Virus record (IMG/VR): IMGVR_UViG_3300045825_000098
Span: 1 to 35,565 of that record
Strand: one strand, 5' to 3'
Source: a virus
Length of the DNA: 35,565 nt
Made by a program: the position numbers and the translations under genes. A model generated the notes under the pieces. That model was not told the DNA's origin. It searched no databases and worked only from the letters and a program-made list of their open reading frames with translations. Positions 3,351 to 21,510 of this stretch are shown here, in pieces; within the stretch, counting starts at the first letter, position 1; the number at the start of each line of letters is the position of its first letter.

Positions 3351-3820
3351 GGGGTCAGCCTCTGGCGGTTGGCTTCGCGATAGGCGGTCATGTACTTGCG
3401 CTTCCTTTCACGCAGGCAGGTGATGCACATTCGCCCGCCAGCGCCAGAGGTGCGGGTGTTGTTCTCGGTGTACTCGTGGCCTTGGGGACAATGTGTCTTT
3501 TGCTGTCCGGCTGCCCTGCCCTTGTCTGCCATATCGCGCATGTTGTCTTGGCGCGTCCCTACGAACAGGTGCGCCGGGTTGACGCAGGGCGGGTTGTCGC
3601 AGGAATGGCACACGAACACGCCTTCGGGGATTGGTCCCACGTTCAGCTCGTAGGAGTAGCGATGGGCCATCACCGTTCCGCTGTCACGCCCTGGATTGGA
3701 GATGACCCCGTACCCGCTCTTGCCCTTCAGGTGAGCGGTCCACAGCCAGCAATCGCCACTCTTGTCGACCTTGCTCCAGAAACGCTCCTCCATCGAGACG
3801 AACTCGCCCTTCCTAGGCAT
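3347..3820 (-). CDS. HNH_3-type homing-like endonuclease (copy 1)
   Basis: A 157-residue HNH nuclease. The N-terminal [15 protein letters not shown] segment is the typical entry of this family. The catalytic core is [18 protein letters not shown], with the HNH histidines and asparagine, followed by [13 protein letters not shown]-terminal CPQGHEY and CxxC zinc-binding tail follows. Two clear paralogues occur at 10999-11475 and 13318-13824. The ATG at 3820 overlaps the WhiB stop by 8 bases. Such genes are usually free-standing homing endonucleases that cut related phage genomes at the insertion point. It is embedded in the operon rather than interrupting a visible gene. Confidence 0.85.
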
Positions 3821-4079
3821 CGCTCTGCCCTCCCTTGCGTCTGATTGCGGTTCTTTCCCTCTGAGTCCGGCCACCCCAAACACCTTCAAGCGAGCGATCT
3901 GCTAGGGCATACGCATCGCAGGCGGCGAGGGACTCGCAGCGCCCGCAGATCCACTTCGCCTGCTTGCTGGTCGGCTCGTGCTTGTCCGGGTGCCAAAGAT
4001 GCGGGTCGGTCTGGGCGCAGAGTGCCCCGACGGCCCACTCCATCCGGGCGCTGCCGTAGGACGTTCCGTCGTCGGTCAC
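3813..4079 (-). CDS. WhiB-family transcriptional regulator
   Basis: An 88-residue protein with the WhiB signature: four cysteines at C21, C45, C48 and C54 (CxxC and CxxxxxC spacing) that bind a [4Fe-4S] cluster, then a GVWGG turn at 66-70 and a basic [12 protein letters not shown] tail that contacts DNA. WhiB proteins occur only in actinobacteria and their phages and partner with the primary sigma factor. Phage copies can repress or compete with host WhiB proteins and alter host physiology or septation. The GTG at 4079 is chosen because it overlaps the upstream stop (GTGA). This gene is strong evidence for an actinobacterial host. Confidence 0.93.
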
Positions 4080-4381
4080 CAGGGCTCCTCTGCTGGCTTG
4101 GCCTTGCGGGGTGCGGGTGGCAGTCGCCAGTTGTCGGGGATGCCGGTGCAGTCGTGGGCTGCCAGGACGGTCAGGTCGTGGCTGGGTGGGTGGCCGGGGA
4201 TCGACCATCTGTCGCGGGGGTCGAGTTGCCCTGTCCGCAGGCGGTAGGTGCGCCGTCCTGCTGTTAGCGACTGGACCTCCCCGAGCGGGTTCAGGGCGTA
4301 GGGGTCGACGGTCGCGGTGAGTGCTGCCCGGTCCCCGTCGAGCCCGATGAGGACGTGCTCCCCGCAGTGATGACGGGTCAT
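4076..4381 (-). CDS. Hypothetical protein next to the repeat cluster
   Basis: A 101-residue protein starting MTRHHCGEHVL with a central basic, proline-rich region (TAGRRTYRLRTGQLDPRDRW). No family is recognised. The ATG at 4381 is preferred because the upstream in-frame reading runs through the GGGGAACG repeat cluster and codes for low-complexity arginine/proline sequence. It is the first gene downstream of that cluster, so its transcription passes through the repeats. Coupled by GTGA to WhiB. Confidence 0.6.
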   Translation of the reverse strand: MTRHHCGEHVLIGLDGDRAALTATVDPYALNPLGEVQSLTAGRRTYRLRTGQLDPRDRWSIPGHPPSHDLTVLAAHDCTGIPDNWRLPPAPRKAKPAEEPW

Positions 4382-4405
4382 GTGGACTGTTCGTCGCACT
4401 GTTCC

Positions 4406-4572
4406 CGTTCCCCGGACCGTTCCCCGTTCCCTCCTACGGAGAGGAACGGGGGGAACGGCCTGTCCAACTGCGGGGGAACGCAGGGGAACGGGGGGGAACG
4501 CCTCTAAGAATGGCGGGGAACGGCGGGGAACGAGGGGAACGCAGATGGCCTCGGGAACGGGTAGCGTTCCCC
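4406..4572. repeat. GGGGAACG iteron cluster (candidate replication origin or regulator-binding array)
   Basis: At least ten exact copies of the 8-mer GGGGAACG occur in 167 bases. Seven are on the plus strand (starting 4450, 4473, 4483, 4493, 4515, 4525 and 4534) and three on the minus strand, read as CGTTCCCC (4406, 4418, 4565). Near copies lie at 4425, 4441 and 4552. Central copies repeat every 9-10 bases, about one helical turn, so a bound protein would face one side. The inverted copies flank the direct ones. The array fills the gap (4382-4580) between the primase/helicase gene and the next gene. Iterons beside replication genes usually bind an initiator. A transcription-regulator array is the alternative. 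Confidence 0.8.
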
Positions 4573-4580
4573 GCGACAAT

Positions 4581-6623
4581 TCAGACATTCCCGTCCTCCT
4601 CTGGGAGGGTTTCCGGCACCCACGAGACGGGCTGGGAGCGGTATCGAAGCCACAGTTCCTCGGTCATCGCGACGTTCTTGAAGGTCAATCCGTAGGTCTT
4701 TCGGATGTACGGCTTCAGCTGCCGAAGGGGCATGTCCAGGTCCTTGGGGACCTGCTTCTCGGTCATCGACGCGAGCAGTTCATCCGCCTTCGCCTTGAAC
4801 CCATCGCCCTCGGCCACATGCCGCAGGACCGGGTCCTCGACCCGTCGCAGGGTCAGGTGCTTCTCCGCGATCGGGAACCGCTGAGCCTCCAGGACCAGGT
4901 CGAACAGATCCTCCCCTGCCTTCGTCAGCCGCCACACCGCGTCGACATCTCCGCTCTTCGCGGACCCGCCACGCTGTCCCTTGCCCTCGTCCTTGCCGGA
5001 ATGGTCGAGTCGGATCATGGAGATGCCGGCCTGCTTCATCTTCAGTCCGGTGTGCTTGTAGAACTCCAGCCAGGTGTCGTTGCTGTTCTCCTCCCCCTCG
5101 ATCGCACGGGAGACGGTGTCTATGACGACGATCTCCGCCCCGTAGTGCTCGACCGCCGCCATGAGCTCCTGCGATCCGCGCTCGGTGTCGAACTTCGCGA
5201 TCGTCGGGAAGGAAAGCAGGATCAGGTTGTCGAGGTCGGCGGGGCCGTAACCCATGTTCGTCAACCGCTCACGAACATCGCCACGGGGATCGTTCTCGAA
5301 GTCGACGTACAGGGTGCGTCGTGGTCGATGCCCGGGGTAGCCGAACATCCCCTTCCCGTTGGCTATCGCCGCCGCCACTTCCAGCATGAGCAGCGACTTG
5401 CCGACCTTCGGCGCGCTGTAGAGGGCCACGAGCCGCCGGGCCGCCAGGAGCGGTTCACAGATCCATTCCTCCTCCAGCTCGTCCGCCCATAGCGCCTGCC
5501 AGTCGACGCGGGGAAGGTGCTCCGCGACCCACGACGACGCAGCCTCCTCGCGCTCCTCGGGAGTGGCGTCTGGGTCGATCTCCGCCTCCCATGCAGGCAG
5601 GTCGATCCGGCTGGGGGCAGTTCCATATCCCTGCTCCATGAGGTCCCGTGCCGCCGCCGACAGGTCTCCGCCGTGATGCAGGTGGGCGTAGATGGCTGCC
5701 TTCGAGTAGCCGACCTTCTCGTCCAGGTCGACGGTGGAGGAGAAGTTGACGAGCGGCCCGTCCTCGATGGTGGACGCAGAATGCCCCTCGGACACCTTCT
5801 TGCCCGGTCTGGTCCAGTAGTCGCGTTCACCATCACGGTGGCTCCACGTCCAACCGGCGGGTTCAAGGATCTCCTTCCAGGTGACGTTCGCCCGGTAGGC
5901 GTCGAACGCGGACTCCCCTGAATAGTCGACTGCCTCGCGGATCGCGCCCACTGGCGCGACGGGGGTCTCGTCCGGCTCGTCAAGGGCGACGTTGAACAGC
6001 AGGTGCAGGAGGTCCCGTTCTTCGCTGGTGATGCTTACCGTCTTGGACGGGTGCCCGCCGTTGATGAACAGGTAGGACGCTCCCGGCTCATGCCCCTTGC
6101 GTCCCGGTGTGGGCGCGACGATGACGAACCCGCCTTCGCCCCGCGTTTCGGAGACGACCTTCCTGTTCGGCTTCTGCCCGGTGTGGGCGAGCTGCGTGTT
6201 CCCGAGCGCGGGGCCGTCGCTGACGCGGACGAACAGGTGCAGGCCGCCACCTGCTGACTGCTCGACGCAGCCGCGGGCGATCGCGCCGAGCAGGTCGGGG
6301 ACGCCGATCTCCTCGTACTGGTGGGCGGCGACCGCCACCTTGCCCAGTCGGACGACCGCGTCCGACATCGGTCCCTCGATCTCGATCAGTTCCGCATTGC
6401 CGGACGCCTCCCCGCACAGGACACCGATCCCTGTGTATCGACCTGTGGACAGCCACGCCTCGACGTCGCTCCACGGCGGGCGCTGGCGCTGGTACTCCTT
6501 CCACCTGCCGAAGGGACGCTTGCCGCCATCCTCATGGGCGGGGATGACGCAGTAGTCGGCGTCGAACCACTCACGGGCCGCAGCGATCAGCGGGTCGGGA
6601 TCAGGGACGGCCTCAGTCATCAC
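4581..6623 (-). CDS. Primase-polymerase / RepA-like helicase fusion
   Basis: A 680-residue replication protein. Residues about 15-200 match the bifunctional DNA primase/polymerase N-terminal domain: a GIGVLCGEASGN turn, an ELIEIEG acidic pair, and SAGGGLHLFVR with catalytic-type H129. A linker follows, then a RecA/AAA_25-type ATPase with Walker A APKVGKS (404-410) and Walker B EIVVID (to D502), and a TVSRA segment. The C-terminus, about 600-680, is a probable winged-helix region. The protein should prime and unwind at the phage origin. The 3' end abuts the iteron cluster. The start is GTG at 6623 or the adjacent ATG at 6620 (GTGATG); the GTG gives a GTGA overlap. Confidence 0.88.
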   Translation of the reverse strand: MMTEAVPDPDPLIAAAREWFDADYCVIPAHEDGGKRPFGRWKEYQRQRPPWSDVEAWLSTGRYTGIGVLCGEASGNAELIEIEGPMSDAVVRLGKVAVAAHQYEEIGVPDLLGAIARGCVEQSAGGGLHLFVRVSDGPALGNTQLAHTGQKPNRKVVSETRGEGGFVIVAPTPGRKGHEPGASYLFINGGHPSKTVSITSEERDLLHLLFNVALDEPDETPVAPVGAIREAVDYSGESAFDAYRANVTWKEILEPAGWTWSHRDGERDYWTRPGKKVSEGHSASTIEDGPLVNFSSTVDLDEKVGYSKAAIYAHLHHGGDLSAAARDLMEQGYGTAPSRIDLPAWEAEIDPDATPEEREEAASSWVAEHLPRVDWQALWADELEEEWICEPLLAARRLVALYSAPKVGKSLLMLEVAAAIANGKGMFGYPGHRPRRTLYVDFENDPRGDVRERLTNMGYGPADLDNLILLSFPTIAKFDTERGSQELMAAVEHYGAEIVVIDTVSRAIEGEENSNDTWLEFYKHTGLKMKQAGISMIRLDHSGKDEGKGQRGGSAKSGDVDAVWRLTKAGEDLFDLVLEAQRFPIAEKHLTLRRVEDPVLRHVAEGDGFKAKADELLASMTEKQVPKDLDMPLRQLKPYIRKTYGLTFKNVAMTEELWLRYRSQPVSWVPETLPEEDGNV

Positions 6624-9146: not shown

Positions 9147-9442
9147 GGGGTCATCTCCATCAGCCGGTGCCCGATCCACTCCGCCACGTTGACGGTTACG
9201 GCGTTGCCGAGCTGCACATAGCGGGTCCGGTCTGACTGCCCGTCAGTCCAGCCACATGGGAAGCCCTGGAGGATCTCGCACTCCTGTGGCGTCAGGCGGC
9301 GGACGCCGACGCCCGCGTGGATGACTGTCGCGTAGATCTCGCCCGTGTTGTCAAAGGCGTTGAGCGTTGGTGACACGATCCCCTCGATCCATGTCTCGTG
9401 GTCCTCAGTTGACTGGGCTCTCCTGCTCTTCACGAACCACAC
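9143..9442 (-). pseudogene. C5-cytosine DNA methyltransferase, C-terminal fragment (out of frame)
   Basis: The 99-residue ORF carries the missing end of a C5 methyltransferase: motif IX (RRLTPQECEILQGFP) and motif X (QLGNAVTVNVAEWIGHRL). Upstream of these it holds target-recognition-type sequence (RRAQSTEDHETW, SPTLNAFD). It lies in the -1 frame relative to the N-terminal ORF and overlaps it by 13 bases. The only available start is a GTG at 9442 without a clear ribosome site. Reading continuously in this frame upstream gives plausible linker residues, so the break is a frameshift rather than a natural gene end. A two-subunit enzyme made from both pieces remains possible. Confidence 0.7.
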
Positions 9443-10152
9443 CGGACACCACCTCCAGTCGGTCGCGTCTCCTGCTGCACGTCGGGGACTAGCCAGCCTG
9501 CGGCGGCGTGTGCGAAGTCCGGGCCACCGCTTCCAAGGCCTCGCGTAAGGGCGCTGGTAACGACCGTCCTCGCCGCGCGCCCCGGAGCAGAATCCCCGCA
9601 GCTGCCTTCGGACTCAAGAAGTACCGGGCCTCCGCGTGGGTCTGCAGCACCTGCGACAAGGAACACGCGACGGCGACGCTGGGCGACTCCGAAAAACTGC
9701 GAGTCGACAGTTCGCCATTCGATGTAAGGGAAGCCTGCGTCGGCCAGAAAAGTGAGGAGGTATCCGAGATCGCGGCCCTGATTAGAGGTAAGCAGTCCCG
9801 GCACGTTCTCGTAGAGGAGCCACCGCGCTTTGACGTGCGCTGCAAGGGTGACCATGTCGAGGACGAGGACGGATCGACTGCCTTCGCCGTATCCAGCCTG
9901 CTTGCCGGCGACGGAGAGGTCCTGGCAGGGGGCGCCTCCGCAAACAAGGTCAACGTTTCCCACGAGTCCGATGTCACTGGCCCACTCCTTCGCTGTGCGG
10001 ATGTCGTCGTGCTTGGGGACGTCAGGCCAGTGCCGCTGCAGGACGGACATGGCCTTCTTGTCGATCTCGACCTGGCCGGCGCAGGTGTGGCCCGCCCGGT
10101 CGAGGCCGAGGTCGAGGCCGCCGATGCCGCTGAAGGTGCTGAGATATCTCAT
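9430..10152 (-). CDS. C5-cytosine DNA methyltransferase, N-terminal catalytic part
   Basis: A 240-residue piece with motif I FSGIGGLDLGL (7-17), motif IV GGAPCQDLS with catalytic C76, motif VI ENVPGLL at 115-121, and motif VIII QRRRRVF at 158-164. It transfers a methyl group from SAM to cytosine C5, probably to protect phage DNA from host restriction. It stops at 9430 before motifs IX and X, which lie in the next ORF in another frame. Without them SAM-site closure and base flipping would be impaired unless the fragment assembles. The ATG at 10152 follows a GGTGGCGG ribosome site. The gene is divergent from the plus-strand island at 10200. Confidence 0.85.
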   Translation of the reverse strand: MRYLSTFSGIGGLDLGLDRAGHTCAGQVEIDKKAMSVLQRHWPDVPKHDDIRTAKEWASDIGLVGNVDLVCGGAPCQDLSVAGKQAGYGEGSRSVLVLDMVTLAAHVKARWLLYENVPGLLTSNQGRDLGYLLTFLADAGFPYIEWRTVDSQFFGVAQRRRRVFLVAGAADPRGGPVLLESEGSCGDSAPGRAARTVVTSALTRGLGSGGPDFAHAAAGWLVPDVQQETRPTGGGVRCGS

Positions 10153-10163
10153 GCCGCCACCAC

Positions 10164-10191
10164 TTGCAACGTGTATACGGGTGGATATACA
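10164..10191 (+). promoter_or_regulatory. Candidate promoter of the plus-strand island (leaderless start)
   Basis: A -35-like TTGCAA (10164-10169) and a -10-like TATACA (10186-10191) are separated by 16 bases. The -10 ends 8 bases before the ATG at 10200, so transcription would begin at or next to the start codon, giving a leaderless mRNA. This is common in actinobacteria. The left end, ACTTGCAACGTG, resembles the operator half-sites near 16195 and 16265. Confidence 0.6.
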
Positions 10192-10199
10192 GTAGAGGC

Positions 10200-10382
10200 A
10201 TGACAACGAACGAGACCCAGAAGAGCACCGGACTGCTGGACATTCAGGTCGGCATGATCGACAGCCGATACGGCGAGGTTGTGGACTACGTCCGCATCGC
10301 CGACCACGCGACCATCACGTTCGCTGATGGCACCGTCAAGCGCGTCGGCTGGGGCTGGCGCTTCTTCCCGAAGGGAATTTGA
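10200..10382 (+). CDS. Small island protein 1, unknown function
   Basis: A 60-residue protein (MTTNETQKSTG...), with a central beta-rich stretch (VDYVRIADHATITFADGTVKR) and an aromatic C-terminus (GWGWRFF). No family is recognised. It is the first gene of a three-gene plus-strand unit running against the surrounding leftward operon, with its own promoter just upstream. ATG at 10200 is preferred over upstream starts because the -10 box would otherwise lie inside the coding region. Confidence 0.6.
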   Translation: MTTNETQKSTGLLDIQVGMIDSRYGEVVDYVRIADHATITFADGTVKRVGWGWRFFPKGI

Positions 10383-11002: not shown

Positions 11003-11475
11003 GACTCCTCCGAGCAGGCCGGGACCAACTTGCCCGTCCACTGGTTGCGCGACCGCCCGCGAACTCGCTTGTCGCGTGCGTTGTCGGCGTCAGTGCCTAG
11101 GTACAGGTGAGCGGGGTTGACGCACGCCGGGTTGTCGCAGTGATGGAGCACGAGGAGGCGCAGGTCGAACATGCCGAAGTGCAGCATCGCGCTGAACCGA
11201 TGTGCCCCCATGTGTCCGGGCGTCCGTGGGCTGAACTTGCCGTAGCCCCAGCGGTTCCTGCCCGCCGTCCAGTTCCAGCACTCGTCATCACCGCGACGAT
11301 CGACTTTCTCCCAGAATCGGTCGAGGACGGGCCGGGACTCGGGGAGCTTCACTGCCATTGGGTCGCCGTGCACCCACCAGCGCCCGTAATGGGTGGCGCA
11401 CCACCCACGGCACTTCGCAACACGCTCGCAGCCGTCGATAGAACACGTCCCGAAGTTGACGCGGCGGGCGCTCAC
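10999..11475 (-). CDS. HNH_3-type homing-like endonuclease (copy 2)
   Basis: A 158-residue nuclease. An N-terminal zinc-binding stretch (CSIDGC, then CRGWCATHYGRWW) targets DNA. It is followed by RFWEKVDRRGDDECWNW and the catalytic core HHCDNPACVNPAHLYLGT, then DNARDKRVRGR. It is paralogous to the genes at 3347 and 13318 but differs in having the extra N-terminal finger and lacking the CPQGHEY tail. The GTG at 11475 overlaps the preceding stop. Confidence 0.85.
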   Translation of the reverse strand: MSARRVNFGTCSIDGCERVAKCRGWCATHYGRWWVHGDPMAVKLPESRPVLDRFWEKVDRRGDDECWNWTAGRNRWGYGKFSPRTPGHMGAHRFSAMLHFGMFDLRLLVLHHCDNPACVNPAHLYLGTDADNARDKRVRGRSRNQWTGKLVPACSEES

Positions 11476-13321: not shown

Positions 13322-13824
13322 GGGTTCACCCGTTCTACTAGGTCGTATCCGGCGGCTCGCCGTTGTTCTCGATAGGTGAGGCGCTTGGTAATGCGGTACT
13401 TCTCCTTGTTGGCGAGGTAGTGGTTCTTGGCGCACGTCCGGCAGTTGCGCCTGTCTCTGTTCACGTAGGTGTTCTCAGGCGTGTACTCGTGGCCCTGCGG
13501 GCAATGGGTTTTGACGATGCTGGCGTGCCGCCGCTTGGCAGTCATGTCGGCCATGTTCTCGGCGTGGGTGCCGAGCCGAAGATGCGCGGGATTCACGCAC
13601 GGCGGGTTGTCGCAGGTGTGCATCACTTCGAGTCGTCTGTGGAACATCCCGAAGTGGATGAACGCGGAGAATCGATGCGCGTACTGATATTTCTTGGTTC
13701 CGAATGCCTTGTGGTTGAGCATCCCGTAGCCCATTGAGCTGATGTGTCCCTGCCATAGCCAGCATTCGTCGTCACCGCGTTCGTCGACGAGCGACCAGAA
13801 CTTCTCGGTTACGTGGATCGTCAC
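13318..13824 (-). CDS. HNH_3-type homing-like endonuclease (copy 3)
   Basis: A 168-residue nuclease with KFWSLVDERGDDECWLW, catalytic core [18 protein letters not shown], then ENMADMTAKRR, and the C-terminal CPQGHEY plus CRTCAKNHYL zinc tail shared with copy 1. It is closer to copy 1 in the tail and to copy 2 in the N-terminal RFSAFIHFGMF-like segment, so the three probably exchange domains. The GTG at 13824 overlaps the preceding stop. Confidence 0.85.
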   Translation of the reverse strand: MTIHVTEKFWSLVDERGDDECWLWQGHISSMGYGMLNHKAFGTKKYQYAHRFSAFIHFGMFHRRLEVMHTCDNPPCVNPAHLRLGTHAENMADMTAKRRHASIVKTHCPQGHEYTPENTYVNRDRRNCRTCAKNHYLANKEKYRITKRLTYREQRRAAGYDLVERVNP

Positions 13825-14819: not shown

Positions 14820-15299
14820 TCAGGCCGAAGCGGCCAGGAACTCCTCGACGGTCACGCCGAGGAGTTCGCAGGCGTCTGCCGGGCCGAGGGAGTCGGGGAA
14901 CTGATCGCGTAGTGATAGCAACGTGTTTGCCATGTGGACGTTGATGCGCTCGGTGTCGACCTGCGATGACCGCTGCTGCCGCCACTCTTCAAGCTGCGCC
15001 CACGACATGACGTGGATGGCCTCGGTCTGGTAGACGATGGTGCCGTCGTCTTGGCGGCGCCTCGTGCCGAGCATTGCGGCCTTGCTGTGGCCTGTGCCGT
15101 TGTAGTTCACGAGGACCCTGTTCTCGTTCTTCGTGATGCGCTTCAAGTCGTTTCGGATGCCGTTGCGGATGTAGATGCGCTCGACTATGCGCGCCAGATC
15201 GAACTCGGCCAGCGCGCTTTCGGCGCGGTCGATGGCGGCGTCGTTGACGACGCGGGTGCCATTCAGTGACTCGGAGAGAACTTCATCCCAATCGCGCAT
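14820..15299 (-). CDS. Hypothetical protein
   Basis: A 159-residue protein, mainly helical, with a mid basic segment (RNGIRNDLKRITKNENRVLV) and a C-terminal SLGPADACELLGVTVEEFL segment that looks like a small helical-bundle tail. No family is recognised. The ATG at 15299 overlaps the TAA of the upstream HTH gene (TAATG), so both are co-translated. It may partner with that DNA-binding protein. Confidence 0.5.
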   Translation of the reverse strand: MRDWDEVLSESLNGTRVVNDAAIDRAESALAEFDLARIVERIYIRNGIRNDLKRITKNENRVLVNYNGTGHSKAAMLGTRRRQDDGTIVYQTEAIHVMSWAQLEEWRQQRSSQVDTERINVHMANTLLSLRDQFPDSLGPADACELLGVTVEEFLAASA

Positions 15300-16015
15300 T
15301 ACTGACCTCCGTTGATGACACGCAGCCCAGTGCGAGCGCGCATGAATTTGTCGAGCCATTCGTTTACGTCGTTGCGGTTGCGGTCCCATGCGCGAACGTC
15401 CGCGTCGGTGAATGGCAGGACGGATGCGTCGACCGGGTCGATCTCGAATGGGGGCCGGATGCTGAGTGCGCGGTTGACGTCGCGCATGAGGTTGGCCTGC
15501 CGGTATCCGGCGTCTCCTTGGACGACGTTCATCACCGCGTCGGCTGCCGCTCGACCTGCCCGCGTCGGCCCGTCGAGAATCTCGCCTGTATCGGTGTCGA
15601 CGTCCTGCTCGACCTTGGTTGACTCGGTGGTGCGCGACGTCGTGGTGATGTGGGCGGGGTAGGTCTTGCCGTCCTGACCAGTGACAGCCGAGGTGTTCAG
15701 TTCTGAACGGCTGAGGTCGGAATGGATCGTTCCCACGCTGACGCCGACCGCGCTAGCGATGGCCCGCGTCGACAGTCCCTGCTCGCGAAGGTTGCCCACG
15801 ACCTCGCGGCGCTCACCTCGGGGTAGTCCGATGTGAACACCAGAGAACTCCGCGTCGCACAGGTCGTCCCACGACTCGTAACCGAGGGTCAGCCAGGCAC
15901 GCCCGTGGAACAGCGCAGCGATGTCGTCGCGGGCTGACTCGACGTGCAGGCGGACGCGGTTGATGCGAGCGGTTGCCTCGTCGTGGGTGATGACGAAGTC
16001 CAGTTCGTCGCTCAT
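15299..16015 (-). CDS. HTH DNA-binding protein, ParB-like flavour
   Basis: A 238-residue protein. Residues 20-110 include a helical entry (INRVRLHVESARDDIAALF), a WLTLGYESWDDLC turn and a helix-turn-helix LREQGLSTRAIASAVGVSVGTIHSDL near 77-102. This order (helical region, LPRGERREVV, then HTH) resembles ParB/KorB-like plasmid proteins and actinophage early regulators. The C-terminal half has no clear domain. It is the second gene of the leftward early operon and could be a regulator or a replication/partition factor. It is not assigned to the iterons, though it is one candidate to bind them. Confidence 0.6.
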   Translation of the reverse strand: MSDELDFVITHDEATARINRVRLHVESARDDIAALFHGRAWLTLGYESWDDLCDAEFSGVHIGLPRGERREVVGNLREQGLSTRAIASAVGVSVGTIHSDLSRSELNTSAVTGQDGKTYPAHITTTSRTTESTKVEQDVDTDTGEILDGPTRAGRAAADAVMNVVQGDAGYRQANLMRDVNRALSIRPPFEIDPVDASVLPFTDADVRAWDRNRNDVNEWLDKFMRARTGLRVINGGQ

Positions 16016-21258: not shown

Positions 21259-21510
21259 CTAGGCGATGCCTGCTGCGTCCGTTGTCGCCTTGTCCTTCGC
21301 CGCCGCGATGGCTACAGCGTTCTTGCGTTGCGCTTCCCGCTCGGCTTCCCGCTGCTCCCACTCAATCAGCACCTGACGCCAGTAGCGGGCCGTCAGTTCC
21401 TTAAACGCGACGACGGGATCGTACTGTGCGGCTTCGGGGAACGTGCCGTTCATGGCGGCGATGAGGCGGGGGACGAGGGCGTTCGGTACGTCGATGGTCA
21501 CGGTTGCCAT
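21259..21510 (-). CDS. Small helical protein downstream of the tail fibres
   Basis: An 83-residue protein starting MATVTIDVPNALVPRLIAAM; its second half is a charged helix (LIEWEQREAEREAQRKNAV). AGGAGC precedes the ATG at 21510. Proteins like this are often found after fibre genes. The role is unknown (fibre assembly or lysis accessory). Confidence 0.5.
   Translation of the reverse strand: MATVTIDVPNALVPRLIAAMNGTFPEAAQYDPVVAFKELTARYWRQVLIEWEQREAEREAQRKNAVAIAAAKDKATTDAAGIA

Follow-up and report, generated by a model that had tools for sequence, protein, structure and literature searches.

The viral record analyzed here, a stretch of 35,565 bp referred to below as the window, contains a dense array of short repeats (4401–4572) that, judged from the sequence, very likely acts as a cis-acting iteron replication origin immediately 3′ of the initiator gene (rep) of the phage. 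The array comprises ten exact copies of GGGGAACG together with degenerate copies. It thus forms a cluster of short direct repeats that adjoins the initiator gene and is unique in the record, which may itself be a fragment. An iteron-type origin had been proposed in a sequence-only reading of this DNA, and the proposal is supported by the position of the array, by its layout, and by the coupling between repeat sequence and initiator C-terminal domain in homologs.

Genomic context and initiator protein

Genes for an integrase, an endolysin and a WhiB protein accompany those for tail, tape-measure and baseplate proteins in the window, a content indicative of a temperate phage with an actinobacterial host; nearly all of its family-matched genes lie on the minus strand. 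Near its left end, a 513-aa phage glycosyltransferase is encoded (912–2453; PHROG 1579, E 1e-159). A C5 cytosine methyltransferase match in the 258-aa ORF at 9430–10206 spans profile positions 1–160 of 324, and this ORF is possibly truncated or split. A 126-nt stretch is present in three diverged copies (65–72%) at 3542–3667, 11080–11205 and 13555–13680, the first two of which sit in HNH endonuclease genes and thus point to repeated HNH genes in the phage. Cumulative GC skew, suggested earlier as a means of mapping the replication start, shows a local peak near 4–5 kb and a drop to about 7 kb, but the signal is weak and, with no clean genome-scale switch, uninformative for the genome as a whole.

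The rep gene (4581–6623, minus strand) encodes a predicted replication initiator that combines a Prim-Pol domain (residues 22–184, PF09250) with an AAA_25/RepA-like helicase domain (residues 373–546, PF13481). An AlphaFold2 model built from 27 homologs (pLDDT 82, pTM 0.44) contains a RecA-type core and a C-terminal three-helix helix-turn-helix (HTH) domain at residues about 600–669 (4617–4826, minus strand), with helices at 608–622, 633–644 and 655–662 and a pLDDT of about 79–88; this is the domain proposed to bind the array. Foldseek identified RSF1010 RepA (1nlf) as the closest replicative helicase in the PDB (TMt 0.75, 19% identity), and a sequence search of the PDB with the window protein returned no match at E 0.01. 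Among near relatives of the window protein, the C-terminal domain is the least conserved: relatives of the window clade that are 55–61% identical overall share 70–77% identity in AAA_25 and 34–49% in the C-terminal domain and have different repeats. The HTH of the window clade is purely helical, unlike the winged helix of a distantly related clade, which was modeled in the relative L163 (AlphaFold2 pLDDT 64 overall, 73–90 in this domain).

Organization of the array

Ten copies of one octamer in 167 bases had been reported, and this count was confirmed: exact GGGGAACG starts at 4450, 4473, 4483, 4493, 4515, 4525 and 4534 on the plus strand and at 4406, 4418 and 4565 on the minus strand, all within 4406–4572, and inclusion of degenerate copies raises the number of GGAACG-type sites to 13. 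The array fills the gap between the primase-helicase gene and the next gene, as had also been stated. This gap (4382–4580) extends from the rep stop (4581) to the probable ATG at 4381 of a minus-strand gene of unknown function (4076–4381, PHROG 16156). A longer ORF, 4076–4588, which continues across the array, is probably unused; its PHROG match begins only at residue 66, which makes ATG 4381 the most probable start. The possibility of a coding repeat was considered and rejected, since the read-through part of the ORF has no family match and the copies in the window are not spaced in multiples of 3.

The density of the octamer is exceptional within the window. The 167-bp span holds ten non-overlapping copies of one 8-mer, whereas no more than 4 were reached in any of 90 Markov-simulated windows and no more than 4 in the rest of the real window. 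Across the 35,565-bp window, in a record that may be a fragment, only one exact copy lies outside the array, at 21436, so that a similar density elsewhere, which would have spoken against the origin reading, was not found; shuffling of the whole window gave a mean of 2.13 copies and, in 100 shuffles, never as many as 11. A second cluster on this scale is not formed by any other 8-mer of the window.

Viewed along the rep gene, the layout consists of the stop codon, direct repeats, a spacer, and a dyad whose inverted repeats flank a short palindrome. On the minus (coding) strand, the stop is followed by one opposite copy, a degenerate copy and seven exact CGTTCCCC, the last of which lies inside the dyad, and then by a degenerate CGTTCC, the palindromic core and the opposite-orientation copies. 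On the side of the rep stop, the direct-repeat block (4473–4541, plus strand) is made up of two triplets (4473, 4483, 4493 and 4515, 4525, 4534), joined by a degenerate site (4553) and an opposite-strand copy (4565). The dyad (4418–4458) reads CGTTCCCC CGTTCCC, core CTCCTACGGAG (4431–4441), GGAACG GGGGAACG, a layout that is conserved in relatives, and the outermost exact copy (4406–4413, minus strand) lies outside it. The core of the window was placed from sequence and fold because the automatic core finder erred in GC-rich loci, the window included. The inverted copies described as lying at the ends are therefore present, but those on the left form half of this dyad around CTCCTACGGAG. Similarly, the description of the array as helically phased holds only approximately: successive exact copies are 12, 32, 23, 10, 10, 22, 10, 9 and 31 bp apart, near-helical spacing is confined to the two central triplets, and the spacing in relatives is mostly 7–11 bp.

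Neither an A+T-rich unwinding region nor DnaA boxes were found: no 20-bp stretch within the array exceeds about 40% A+T, and the consensus patterns tried detected no DnaA box nearby. These elements are typical of plasmid iteron origins, although not of all of them. A slightly less GC-rich patch, CCTCTAAGAATGGC (4501–4514), between the direct-repeat triplets is a weak candidate for a melting site.

As single-stranded DNA, the segment 4400–4460 folds at −21.5 kcal/mol (z = −3.5). The corresponding RNA folds better than shuffles (z = −4.9), as would be expected if the dyad ended the rep transcript as a terminator or 3′-end hairpin and the repeats were mere by-products. A terminator scan and an Rfam search, however, found no terminator-like site and no known RNA, and a hairpin would leave unexplained both the 3–7 direct repeats outside it and the coupling between the repeats and the Rep C-terminus, so that an RNA-level element appears very improbable. 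It is also conceivable that the initiator binds the array for control, through autoregulation, copy-number control or handcuffing, while the true origin lies elsewhere. Iterons commonly serve both roles, as established for iteron plasmids; those of P4 occur at two places, ori and crr; and several relatives carry arrays inside the 3′ end of an ORF. Yet the array lies downstream of rep in a co-directional gene row and not at a promoter, a simple scan detected no sigma-70-type promoter at 4300–4700, and the window lacks a second cluster. A purely regulatory array is accordingly considered unlikely, and the origin reading is retained below.

Conservation of position and layout among homologs

Relatives were identified by protein alone in two protein-profile scans, which yielded 113 loci, 103 of which had enough sequence behind the gene; in one profile scan, 80 of the 272 homologs reported were kept. 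A locus was scored as positive when its strictly densest 7-mer cluster lay within 450 bp of the rep stop. This was the case in 93 of the 103 homologs, against 11.9 expected from zone length, and in 49 of 58 loci after removal of redundancy, compared with 7 of 285 for other long genes of the same loci. At least four of the ten exceptions are explained by displaced arrays or ORF-calling artifacts: in L189 the array lies about 520 bp downstream, and in L279 and L286 the ORF ends are at issue. In L241, a gene (4700–5785) is inserted between rep and the array, which indicates that the array is separable from the rep stop codon; by eye, its product (LKHIVMFSGGIGSWAAAK...) resembles a PAPS-reductase-like ATPase.

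Homologs in this protein-only sample thus keep the gap and its array, whereas the repeat is usually not GGGGAACG: CGGCACG, GATTCCC, GGGACAC, GGGGCAC, CCTGCCC, CCTCGTC, AACCGCG and others were found instead. In the largest clade, the core palindrome (CCCCTCTTTAGAGGGG or CCCCCTATAAGGGGG) stays constant while the flanking repeats change. The conserved trait is position and layout, and the repeat word is not conserved.

An array of this kind is absent from PrimPol phages with another helicase (Bridgette, Shambre1) and from phages with their own DNA polymerase (BirdsNest, NTR1, Tinyman4). PrimPol was considered as the partner of the array and rejected: Bridgette and Shambre1 match the window protein in the PrimPol half only and lack the array, and Streptomyces phage mu1/6 matches in the helicase half only, yet has one.

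Relatives identified by DNA pattern

A DNA-only search with the dyad pattern retrieved 47 viral contigs, most of which matched AAA_25 replication genes by tblastn. In nearly all of the AAA_25-matching contigs, the array lies at the 3′ end of the gene in the same polar order, and the architectures include PrimPol-AAA_25, mu1/6-like and Toprim-AAA_25 proteins. The triple-octamer pattern retrieved 19 viral contigs, in at least 13 of which the array lies inside the 3′ end of a different primase-helicase gene (DUF7146 plus Toprim, or DnaG-like). Because the motif itself was used as the query, these searches cannot tell how frequent the layout is.

Arrays of the same octamer within the 3′ end of a DUF7146/Toprim (or DnaG-like) primase-helicase ORF were observed in L013 (3240–6191), L006–L009, L012–L016, L021–L024, L034, L091, L097 and L123. 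In these ORFs, the octamers occur in both orientations, mostly in the same frame, and encode GER and RSP/FP tail repeats; primases of the L013 type thus carry the octamer in frame (GER/RSP).

Among the genomic matches are elements of Mycobacterium and Microlunatus that nearly duplicate the arrangement in the window. In L038, L043, L045 and L046 (Microlunatus, Mycobacterium and Aeromicrobium elements), a rep gene is followed by a window-like GGGGAACG array, and the helicase types of rep differ. L043 may be a prophage or satellite, as an HTH_17 protein and a phage terminase small subunit are also present. That several initiator types with dissimilar primase and helicase domains have the same octamer beside them points to a recurrent emergence of similar origin words. 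Of the 109 genome matches to the triple pattern, most were pure 9–11 bp tandem repeats and were set aside; among them, L056, L066, L080, L113, L128 and others are GGGGAACG-containing microsatellites of Streptomyces or other chromosomes, unrelated to the array. A microsatellite reading was dropped because the arrays are dispersed and in two orientations, unlike pure tandem repeats.

Coupling between repeat sequence and the C-terminal domain

To relate the repeat word to the protein, pairs at least 90% identical in the AAA_25 helicase were compared within the Bridgette-like clade. Pairs sharing the same word are about 94–96% identical in every segment, whereas pairs with different words are 48% identical in the C-terminal domain and 90–96% in every other segment. 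L163 and L233, for example, share 97% nucleotide identity up to −265 of the stop and again 97% from +176 for 2.1 kb, with no identity across the C-terminal codons and the array, where the repeats are CCGTTCC versus CTGAACC/CCGAACC. Between L171 and L255, nearly every iteron has changed from CCGTTCC to CCGATCC while the core is identical. Residues of the wing also correspond to the repeat: R-K-x-GQK occurs with GGAAC in 8 of 8 cases and R-[QH]-x-GQK with GGTTC in 7 of 7. In the pairs L171/L255, L163/L233 and L230/L220, RK.GQK, RQ.GQK, KQ.GQK and [KR]E.GQK track the iteron bases GGAAC, GGTTC, GGATC and GGCGC. These wing residues are a candidate recognition code for the iteron bases.

The pairs are not independent, linkage could contribute to the coupling, and it is the winged-helix clade, a distant relation, that supplies the strongest data, the clade of the window offering one same-motif close pair only. 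A single recombination across two neighbors would also yield coupling between C-terminus and array. Nevertheless, the flanks are identical on both sides of the exchanged block, which argues for selection on the domain–array pair. Both an exchange delimited on either side and a concerted alteration of nearly all repeats are difficult to account for without binding of the repeats by the domain. Since the change of repeat coincides with replacement of only that domain, the C-terminal HTH is very probably the part with which the initiator reads the array.

Alternatively, the repeats could be operators for another regulator, namely the HTH protein at 15299–16015, WhiB (3813–4208) or an ECF sigma factor. 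The window does contain WhiB and HTH genes as well as GGGAAC and CGTT words, and GGAAC..CGTT resembles ECF promoters. With one other site in the window, however, there is no regulon, and the repeats of close relatives change in step with the Rep C-terminus, which would be unexpected for a host or unlinked regulator; such an operator function is scarcely credible. An array of ECF promoters was rejected specifically, as spacing and orientation do not fit and the repeats differ between relatives. Because repeat change tracks change in the Rep C-terminal domain, the likely binder is the primase-helicase's own C-terminal HTH, and not WhiB or the HTH protein, both of which had been named earlier as candidates.

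Proposed mechanism and implications

Under the origin reading, the C-terminal HTH of the PrimPol-RepA protein would bind the GGGGAACG copies, with several protomers lining up in register along the direct repeats and assembling symmetrically at the dyad. This assembly would load the RepA-like ring, and the DNA would open at or near the core, or at the less GC-rich spacer. The Prim-Pol domain might then prime both strands, with host enzymes carrying out elongation. The weak A+T content and the absence of DnaA boxes suggest that opening depends on the initiator itself.

The codons of the proposed recognition domain adjoin its target, so that domain and target would be exchangeable as one cassette. 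We moderately favor the view that the last 80–100 codons of a self-contained primase-helicase and the iteron array that follows constitute a single exchangeable origin-specificity cassette across a broad range of bacterial viruses. The layout of such a cassette would be constant, comprising a direct-repeat block and a dyad with a short C-run/T-A/G-run palindrome, and each repeat would consist of a G-run and a small number of variable bases that the domain determines, partly through one wing residue (K, Q/H or E). If this is correct, cassette exchange would change the origin recognized and could thereby set replicon compatibility between phages.

For temperate actinophages, in which origins have seldom been mapped, the array provides a concrete candidate, and it suggests a rule for locating origins in many uncultured phages, namely to inspect the sequence that follows the PrimPol/RepA-type helicase gene. 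Naturally occurring swaps of the C-terminal domain together with the array additionally represent ready-made experiments on the coevolution of initiator specificity and origin in iteron replicons.

Comparison with known systems

No description of such an array in actinophages was found in the literature searched, a scope that excluded most subscription journals, and a search for the octamer returned only unrelated papers. In mycobacterial RepA prophages, no repeats were identified (PMC7157519). Among isolated actinophages, the AAA_25 helicase gene of mu1/6 (gp21) carries a GGGCAGGT array with a ctctctaaagagag core; in contrast to the window, the array lies inside the 3′ end of the ORF, the repeat is different, and the alignment covers the helicase part and not PrimPol.

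Phage P4 (alpha/crr) resembles the window in having a multidomain primase-helicase initiator and 8-bp iterons in both orientations directly 3′ of its gene. In the P4 record, crr is annotated at 4291–4590, alpha ends at 4636, and adjacent iterons are about 9–11 bp apart. The P4 type I iteron, GGTGAACA, matches GGGGAACG at 6 of 8 bases; the form GGTGAACAG was checked against the P4 record. The P4 helicase belongs to SF3, whereas that of the window has an AAA_25/RecA-like fold. P4 further differs in its Toprim primase (PMC4234260), a second iteron cluster 4.5 kb away and type 2 repeats, while the window combines PrimPol and a RecA-type RepA helicase with a single cluster and a dyad core. In SaPI Rep/ori and the SCCmec Cch2 origin, the helicase gene is immediately followed by iterons, which the C-terminal domain of the helicase reads (PMC7581432); the window has a predicted C-terminal DNA-binding domain as well, modeled as a helical HTH and, in a relative, as a winged helix, and differs in helicase type, iterons and host range. 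The SCCmec region also has inverted repeats, which Cch2 binding did not need (PMC7581432).

The PrimPol initiator ORF904 of pRN1, for which specific binding was not detected, has a C-terminal winged helix and an essential sequence within 166 bp 3′ of its gene. The plasmid requires a stem-loop in this position, and a similar one was noted 3′ of a PrimPol gene in Bordetella phage BIP-1 (PMC4234260). The window shares a stem-loop 3′ of its PrimPol gene, given the dyad fold (z = −3.5), but pRN1 has a stem-loop without iterons and an SF3 helicase domain, which does not follow PrimPol in the window. RSF1010 oriV (RepA/RepB/RepC) shares the RepA-type hexameric helicase, a likeness of fold only, and the steps in which iterons are recognized, DNA is unwound and synthesis is primed. 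RSF1010 divides the work among three separate proteins (PMC4234260), whereas the window lacks a separate iteron-binding RepC and a separate RepB primase, and all functions appear to reside in one chain with PrimPol and HTH. What sets the window apart from these systems is its RepA-type helicase, its combination of iterons with a dyad, and the cassette exchange seen in its relatives.
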